Shown here piece by piece: positions 33,507 through 34,667 of a stretch of 64,000 nt of DNA; position 1 is the stretch's first letter, and the number at the start of each line of letters is the position of its first letter. Location of the stretch: positions 1 to 64,000 of the forward strand of contig JAJDAN010000039.1 of assembly GCA_029261855.1 (NCBI GenBank), written 5' to 3'. A program made the position numbers and the translations under genes. Source of the DNA: Deltaproteobacteria bacterium. Its GTDB lineage: Bacteria; Myxococcota_A; UBA9160; UBA4427. The notes under the pieces are model-generated. The model searched no databases and was not told the origin of the DNA. It worked only from the letters and a program-made list of their open reading frames with translations.

Positions 33507-33548
33507 CTGACGCTAGGCCTGACGCTAGGCCTGGGGCTGGGGCTGGGA
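33507..33548. repeat. 12-bp direct repeat plus CTGGGG repeats
   Basis: CTGACGCTAGGC occurs twice in tandem (33507-33518 and 33519-33530), followed by CTGGGG, CTGGGG and CTGGGA (33531-33548). It spans the 3' end and stop of the peroxiredoxin-like gene, encoding its QPQPQA tail. Confidence 0.75.
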
Positions 33549-34667
33549 CGCACTTACGTCCTGGAACTCCCGGGACACCCAGCGCACCTTCGGCGTGATG
33601 TAGACCGCCCAGGCCGCCAGTGCCGCGGCAACCGGCAGCGTGGGGAGCCACGCGAAAGCCAGGACCCAGGCGCCCGCGAACGCGAGCAGTCGGATACCGG
33701 CGCGCGCGAGATGCCCCGTCGACTTGAATCCTCGCGCGTTCACGAACCACCCGTTCGCCACGAGCAGCGATGCGAAGACCGGCCAGGGGATGCCCGGCGA
33801 GTCGACGGGCGGGTCCGCGTCGAGCGGTGCGTCCGCGGCGGTCGCGCCGCTTTCGAGCGCGCGCGCGATTCTCGCCCACACGTGCTCGGCGGTCGGTCGT
33901 TCCGTCGCGCCGCCCACGTTCTTGTGGGTTGGGACACACCGCCAGCGGTAGAGCACCCGGCCGTCGCCGTTCACGGCGAGCACGCCGGGTTGGAAGAAGC
34001 CCTTGGGATGGACCGGCACCAAGTCGCCTGCTGCGCCCGCGCTCGCCTGCAGGAAGCCGAGACGCTCGTTGACGAACAGATCGACCCATCCGCGTTCGCG
34101 GCAAGTGCCGGAGATCTCGTGGTGGGGATCGCCGACCGTCTCGAAGTCCAGGCACCAGTCGGTTGCCGCCCGGCCGGCGAGCACCTGCGGCTCGCTCGAG
34201 ATCGCGTAGATCTCACCGCCCGCCGCGCGCACCTTGTCCGCGACGCCCTCGCGCACGTAGCCCCGTAACTCGGAGCGACAGGGAGGTCACCAGTAGCCGC
34301 GGTAGAAGACGAGGACCACGAACGCGTTCTGGCCGAGGGCGCGATCCAACCACCCGCGCCGGGCACCCGGCGGCGGATCGAGTTCTGCGGGCTGGCGTCC
34401 GTCTGCCGCCGGCGGCGGGGCGTCGTCGAGGAGGGCGACCTGGTAGTCATCGCCGTTTGCCGAAACGCGGAACGATCGCTGTTCGCAGCGATCCCCACCG
34501 CACAGCACCAGACGCAGATCGCGAACTTCCGACCCCGCGAGCGCGGCCTCGGGATCCAGAATTCCAGTCACCTCGAACGAGACGTCCTGGCTGCGGTTGA
34601 ACCACGCCAGCGCGGCCTCGACTTCGGGGCGAAGTCCTTCGGGGATCGTCTCCTGGACGGTCGTCAT
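33525..34667 (-). CDS. AhpC/TSA-type peroxiredoxin-like protein, probable selenoprotein (Sec127 encoded by UGA 34287-34289)
   Basis: The first 126 codons end FVVLVFYRGYW at a TGA; the same frame continues PPCRSELRGYVREG and IYAISSEPQ. Peroxiredoxin-like proteins of this family have FYRGxWCPxC, so the UGA replaces the peroxidatic Cys and gives U-x-x-C (Sec127, Cys130). The full protein is 380 residues, with a thioredoxin-fold core (KGFFQPGVLAVNGDGRVLYRW) and two hydrophobic C-terminal segments suggesting membrane attachment. AAGGAGG precedes the ATG at 34665-34667. A SECIS-like hairpin follows the UGA. It probably reduces peroxides. Confidence 0.82.
34260..34276 (-). promoter_or_regulatory. 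SECIS-like hairpin after the peroxiredoxin-like UGA
   Basis: On the minus strand GCTCCG (34276-34271) pairs with CGGGGC (34265-34260), six pairs with one G-U, loop AGTTA with G second. The loop begins 17 bases after the UGA, near the lower limit usual for bacterial SECIS elements. Confidence 0.5.

Follow-up and report, generated by a model that had tools for sequence, protein, structure and literature searches.

A probable UxxC peroxiredoxin-like selenoprotein family with a possibly cystatin-like N-terminal domain and a predicted C-terminal membrane hairpin

Introduction

Peroxiredoxin-like (Prx-like) selenoproteins that carry selenocysteine (Sec, U) in a UxxC motif are known, and are described as abundant in the sea in PMC1088965, PMC2398784 and sections 5 and 7 of PMC13188914. 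The Sargasso Sea paper distinguished a Prx-like family that has UXXC from the Sec-peroxiredoxins, which have TXXU (PMC1088965), and the UxxC proteins form a class separate from the TxxU Sec-peroxiredoxins in Table 1 of PMC13188914 as well. As thiol:disulfide oxidoreductases of PF00578 (the Sargasso 'Prx-like' and GOS 'Prx-like 1' families) they combine an AhpC/TSA-type domain, with UxxC for TxxC, with an in-frame UGA followed by a bSECIS hairpin, and are common in the marine samples of those papers (PMC1088965, PMC2398784). Most Prx-like and thioredoxin-like (Trx-like) selenoprotein families in Table 2 of the GOS study have far more Cys than Sec forms; Prx-like 1 has 225 Sec and 2,740 Cys, and Trx-like 3 is an exception to this excess (PMC2398784).

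More elaborate architectures are also on record. Fusions of Prx-like 2 or 3 to unknown domains, the attached domain having conserved Cys, are reported in section 9 of the GOS study (PMC2398784), and a 2021 survey names a Prx-like/DsbC-domain fusion, a partner different by name from the one described here (PMC9402790). The passages of a 2022 review that bear on such proteins add nothing closer (PMC9312934), and a term search of the deep-Sep paper (PMC12013277) returned no relevant passage.

Here we describe a gene found in a 64,000-nt stretch of DNA, referred to as the window. From its sequence and those of its homologues, the gene most probably encodes a UxxC Prx-like selenoprotein that works as the Sec form of a CxxC-type reductase and not as a TxxC peroxiredoxin. 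It shares the AhpC/TSA-type domain, the in-frame UGA and the bSECIS with the Prx-like UxxC selenoproteins, from which its family differs in two additions: an N-terminal domain, possibly cystatin-like, that bears an invariant Cys pair, and a predicted C-terminal membrane hairpin. That the UxxC Prx-like oxidoreductase is of a known kind, and that these two additions are what is distinctive, is well supported. With SelL and the SelL-related redox proteins (NF040769) it has in common the Prx-like fold and the Sec or Cys in a CxxC-derived motif, and all 29 family members scanned match NF040769 weakly (best E 4.9e-06); the window protein, in contrast, has one Sec only, another length and other end domains, and scores 19.3 bits against a cut-off of 120. 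The Prx-like FYRGYWCPxC proteins of Flavobacterium and others (L120-L124) share the FYRGYWC-x-x-C motif but are shorter, carry Cys, and are 26-36% identical over part of the Prx domain only, with the N- and C-terminal parts unmatched. No description of the whole architecture was found in the passages compared; single members may have been counted in GOS 'Prx-like 1'. The family is not yet in the family libraries searched.

Results and Discussion

Gene layout and the in-frame UGA

The gene (Table 1) runs on the minus strand as one 380-codon frame from an ATG at 34667-34665 to a TAG stop at 33527-33525. Translation with TGA read as U gives a single in-frame UGA, codon 127 (34289-34287), in the motif FVVLVFYRGYW-U-PPCRSELRGY. 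The original prediction had the coordinates and the description right and left the strand unstated; on the plus strand, 33525-34667 does not encode the selenoprotein. The predicted U-x-x-C motif is there, in U127 and C130, as are the N-terminal extension of about 110 residues and the C-terminal hydrophobic segments.

Table 1. Positions in the window of the selenoprotein gene and its features
Feature	Position	Strand	Basis
Selenoprotein gene	33525..34667	-	380 residues + TAG stop, UGA read as Sec at codon 127
Shine-Dalgarno-like AAGGAGGT	34674..34681	-	read from sequence, 5' of ATG
N-terminal domain, residues 1-84	34416..34667	-	helix + four-stranded sheet, possibly cystatin-like arrangement
C56 codon	34500..34502	-	invariant, 73/73 homologues with column filled, of 74
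C61 codon	34485..34487	-	invariant, 73/73 homologues with column filled, of 74
Prx/thioredoxin-fold domain, residues 101-278	33834..34367	-	Pfam AhpC-TSA; structure match to Bcp4
Sec127 UGA	34287..34289	-	69/74 homologues UGA, 5/74 Cys codon
C130 codon, partner of U127 in UxxC	34278..34280	-	73/74 homologues, one Arg
bSECIS hairpin	34260..34276	-	6-bp stem, loop AGUUA
C-terminal helix pair, residues 317-367, predicted membrane hairpin	33567..33719	-	predicted helices, hydropathy, charge

Taken as a single sequence, the UGA and its hairpin form a pattern that chance could account for in so GC-rich a window (GC 63-69%; 204 ORFs of 120 aa or more). Sixty-one TGAs in the 64,000 nt have at least 100 open codons on each side, and six of them, codon 127 included, are followed by a hairpin under the same rule. 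This count is what speaks for taking the UGA as a stop, as a decay mutation or as a sequencing error, with the frame downstream open by chance or dead. It is because of the homologues that the pattern is lifted far beyond chance. The same codon is UGA in 69 of 74 homologues and Cys in the other five, conservation extends to the C terminus, and the hairpin is compensated; the homologues refute a stop or an error unless all are independent errors, and its probability is negligible. With standard annotation the gene will probably come out split or truncated, and no NCBIfam model exceeds its cut-off for the window protein.

Homologues and the use of Sec and Cys

A search of 97 related genomes with the read-through protein as query recovered full-length homologues, almost all of which have an in-frame TGA, genome G001 having the sole one without; the 30 loci extracted comprise 29 U forms and this one Cys form. 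A scan of named genomes added 80 loci, and removal of 26 duplicates and 10 short or distant rows from the total of 110 left 74 distinct homologues, none of which has any residue other than Sec or Cys at codon 127. The original prediction would have failed had similarity been lost beyond the UGA; instead, mean pairwise identity is 0.537 over residues 1-126, 0.597 over residues 128-292 and 0.466 over residues 293-370, with third codon positions changing most in all three segments. The single exception to C130 is a U form, L052 (6001-7134), that reads U-P-P-R. Either it is a Sec-only variant, so that the C130 pair is not strictly required, or this position was read wrong.

Named sources include Myxococcota/Deltaproteobacteria, Gammaproteobacteria, an Alphaproteobacterium, Acidimicrobiia, Saprospiraceae and Verrucomicrobiales MAGs. 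Two loci, labelled Opitutales (L091) and Dehalococcoidia (L111), are placed by the tree inside gammaproteobacterial clades and are possibly mis-binned contigs. Within the window's own phylum, 24 of 282 sampled genomes have a homologue at E 1e-30 and all 24 belong to the window's order, a restriction which suggests that the family's presence in other phyla is due to transfer between phyla.

The Cys forms fall into two groups, one of four sequences (Saprospiraceae, Lewinella, Verrucomicrobiales) and one consisting of the G001 sequence, both inside Sec clades with starred support. They need two changes on the 73-row tree, a number as low as which was reached in none of 500 shuffles, and with the tree rooted at its midpoint Sec is the likely, though unproven, ancestral state. 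The family is a mostly marine one in which, among the homologues sampled, Sec predominates, unlike in most of the Prx-like and Trx-like families of the GOS survey.

A conserved bSECIS hairpin

The stem, GCUCCG/CGGGGC, starts 10 nt after the UGA, and the loop AGUUA starts 16 nt after it. The six pairs and the AGTTA loop had been foreseen correctly, whereas the distance of '17 bases' given for the hairpin applies to the first loop base, before which 16 nt lie. Section 5 of PMC13188914 sets out criteria for a bSECIS: a stem of 4-16 bp, a loop of 3-9 nt with G in the first two loop positions, the loop 16-37 nt after the UGA and MFE <= -7.5. The window hairpin lies within all of these, with 6 bp, AGUUA, -9.3 kcal/mol for its 20-nt core and a loop distance at the lower limit of the published range. 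One common variant in other homologues reaches only -6.6 as a bare 17-mer. Against shuffled sequences the 20-nt core is well folded (z -3.34) while the fold in its 44-nt context is unremarkable (z -0.81), and Rfam gave no match at the gathering threshold anywhere in the window.

Comparison across homologues is more telling. The loop, AGUUG or AGUUA, starts 16 nt after the UGA, and standard pairs fill 98.3% of stem cells in 67 distinct U-form sequences, a level that falls to 28-53% once one arm is shifted by 1-3 positions and that none of 1000 shuffles reaches. The fourth pair occurs as C-G, U-A, G-C and U-G. On its 5' side it takes the middle base of codon 132, where Ser, Phe, Arg, Ala and Leu occur, and on its 3' side the wobble base of Arg135, where change is synonymous. 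These changes are compensatory, and the RNA stem is preserved as residue 132 varies. Codon choice is uniform as well, Glu133 being GAG and Leu134 TTG or TTA in 69 of 69 U forms (GAG averages 59%, and TTR 19% of Leu codons, in these genes); since related sequences are not independent, neither the pairing figures nor the codon counts are probabilities. A single G-G mismatch is present at the third pair in seven of the 69 U forms. In each of the five Cys forms a pair is gone, or the loop G, or both. The search for a bSECIS downstream of the UGA that the prediction had called for has thus produced a hairpin within the published limits, with covariation over the homologues.

Selenocysteine machinery

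In the host genome, 6.96 Mb and 98.6% complete, a tRNA-Sec scores 66 bits, over the cut-off, and is also called by ARAGORN; SelB, SelA and SelD likewise exceed their cut-offs. A host devoid of such machinery would have spoken against the prediction; the machinery is present, and with the 69 U and five Cys forms and the compensated hairpin it upholds the assignment of Sec to the UGA. Many selenophosphate synthetases are themselves Sec-containing, and the host SelD (C24:63971-64897, L043) carries an in-frame TGA.

Could the UGA be read as some other residue, such as Trp or Cys inserted by a suppressor tRNA? The frame is open under other codes, and nothing further was found in favour of this. Cys is the sole residue at the site in the homologues that lack UGA, TGA is the normal stop at the end of many homologues, and both the compensated bSECIS and the complete Sec machinery of the host point away from it, which makes another residue extremely improbable.

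Among the genomes examined, 39 of the 43 that have a U form contain a SelB over the cut-off, and none of the five that have a Cys form does. Four U-form genomes (G106, G124, G129 and G131) have neither SelB nor tRNA-Sec over the cut-off, for which incomplete or mis-binned assemblies are a possible explanation. The Cys-form genome G143 has a weaker tRNA-Sec match over the cut-off (51.2 bits) and no SelB. In G001, the other such case, a tRNA-Sec of 64.8 bits and a SelB fragment at the end of a contig imply that Cys is there not tracking loss of the machinery; the SECIS stem of this Cys form (L034/L076) has one C-C mismatch, and the gene looks like a recent Sec-to-Cys replacement. The agreement between Sec form and machinery is strong, not complete.

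The window's own genome has 20 PF00578 matches, eight of which, besides the gene with codon 127, contain a TGA, so that the organism looks selenoprotein-rich. Four AhpC/TSA-family loci in it have the in-frame TGA within UxxC: L130 (C3:153231, WUPYC), L131 (C89:432184, WUPPC), L136 (C32:94414, FYRGHWUPFC) and L144 (C34:12102, GULFC).

Register of the active site

Where does the Sec stand relative to the catalytic residues of the two enzyme types that share this fold? In a gapless alignment with a PrxQ-like protein of the host (VFYPGDGTPVC against VFYRGYWUPPC), U127 lies opposite the Thr of TPVC and C130 opposite the peroxidatic Cys, and against a thioredoxin-like WCKPC, again without gaps, U127 faces the first Cys. 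Profile comparison returns the same register for the PrxQ-like protein L128, at a moderate probability of 79%, and for a second peroxiredoxin, L129, at a weak 1.3%. FYRGYWUPPC does not conform to the peroxiredoxin motif PxxxTxxC, in which the reactive residue is last. The original prediction had put the UGA at the peroxidatic position, and here it was mistaken: U127 aligns with the Thr of TxxC, and it is C130 that takes the peroxidatic place.

The reading first proposed, a true peroxiredoxin whose peroxidatic residue is Sec, would be in keeping with the fold (Z 14.5 over 142 residues), and a U127 selenolate could still attack peroxides. We nevertheless consider it quite improbable, given the unmet PxxxTxxC, with U127 replacing the Thr. 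Sec-peroxiredoxins share with the window protein the fold and a Sec in the motif region, but those in Table 1 of PMC13188914 are TxxU, with the Sec at the opposite end of the motif.

A stronger alternative is a thiol-disulfide oxidoreductase of the thioredoxin/ResA/DsbE type that reduces protein disulfides and is no peroxidase. U127 occupies the position of the first thioredoxin Cys; ResA is the second weak NCBIfam match, seen in 26 of the 29 members (E up to 1; the window protein scores 14 bits against 170); and when PDB sequences were compared with the family profile, one entry alone came within E 0.1, a thioredoxin family protein aligned over WCPPCR. Against this, Pfam AhpC-TSA is over its cut-off and the best structural matches are peroxiredoxins. 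ResA and DsbE, moreover, have an N-terminal hydrophobic segment for export, and the window protein has none. We regard such a disulfide reductase as a real possibility, somewhat short of even. The wider reading that we prefer is a Sec-dependent reductase of CxxC type, for which a peroxide and a disulfide are nearly equally likely as substrates.

Fold, N-terminal domain and membrane hairpin

With 29 sequences as input, AlphaFold2 reached a mean pLDDT of 84.3. In the predicted structure, residues 101-278 superpose on Bcp4 with Z 14.5 and an rmsd of 2.8 over 142 residues (VIA-align). AhpC-TSA (PF00578) is the only Pfam family over its cut-off in the window protein (34.4 bits against 26, over profile positions 24-95 of 124 only) and is matched by 29 of 29 members at E up to 1. 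The Prx-like fold that had been predicted is thereby borne out, and the protein combines the two marks of the Prx-like UxxC selenoproteins, this fold and the UxxC motif.

The first 87 residues, folded alone (pLDDT 83.6), resemble cystatins and monellin; the best match is a designed protein (Z 8.7, rmsd 2.1 over 74 residues), with multicystatin at Z 8.3 (rmsd 2.9 over 78). The best Foldseek E for this domain is 0.7, so the cystatin likeness of the model may be only a common arrangement. Searched alone, the domain of the window protein matches no Pfam family, and weak Cystatin matches occur in two of 71 homologues. Its single PDB sequence match, at E 0.64, was taken as chance. C56 and C61 lie on adjacent strands of a hairpin in the AlphaFold2 model, with a spacing of four residues in 62 homologues and eight in 11. 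The attached domain with conserved Cys recalls the GOS fusions, but Unknown_3, by its description in PMC2398784, has three conserved Cys including a CxxC, whereas the pair here is C-x4-C or C-x8-C.

At the other end, AlphaFold2 predicts two hydrophobic helices, 317-340 and 343-367. Before the helices the net charge is positive in every one of the 71 homologues counted; between them it is zero in 66, and after them it is positive in only 37. The N terminus is without a hydrophobic segment (mean KD -0.34 over residues 1-30). The simplest reading is a hairpin anchor that would leave the catalytic part in the cytoplasm.

Proposed mechanism and significance

In the mechanism we envisage, SelB would bind the AGUUR-loop hairpin and deliver Sec at the UGA. 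The Prx-like domain would face the cytoplasm, tied to the inner membrane by the C-terminal helical hairpin. The U127 selenolate would attack an oxidised substrate, either a disulfide or a peroxide, perhaps of a membrane lipid, and C130 would resolve the adduct as an Se-S bond within U-P-P-C. Thioredoxin or a comparable donor would supply the electrons, perhaps through C56 and C61, whose role as a relay is suggested by their invariance alone.

Gene neighbourhood offers little further guidance. Among 67 loci (1968 ORFs) no gene family lies beside the gene in more than eight, and hence there is no operon partner. In the window itself a sulfatase-modifying-factor-like (FGE) protein is encoded just downstream (32314-33354, minus strand), and a MerT-like membrane protein with a C-terminal heavy-metal-associated domain lies at 30887-31819 (minus strand). 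MerT-like proteins include selenoproteins listed in Table 1 of PMC13188914.

Finally, the features of the family can be drawn together into a more specific proposal, which we consider unlikely to be right in every part: a separate, Sec-dominant selenoenzyme family of membrane-tethered, cytosol-facing reductases that act on membrane-lipid peroxides, with C56/C61 as a relay, built into the cystatin-like N-terminal domain, re-reducing U127-C130, Sec as the ancestral state and two later replacements by Cys. If true, it would provide a bacterial counterpart of the glutathione peroxidase that reduces lipid hydroperoxides. The invariant second Cys pair and the membrane hairpin point to an electron relay that can be tested, and the family makes a good case for asking why selenium stays, with natural Sec and Cys neighbours, such as L034 and L037, that are directly comparable.
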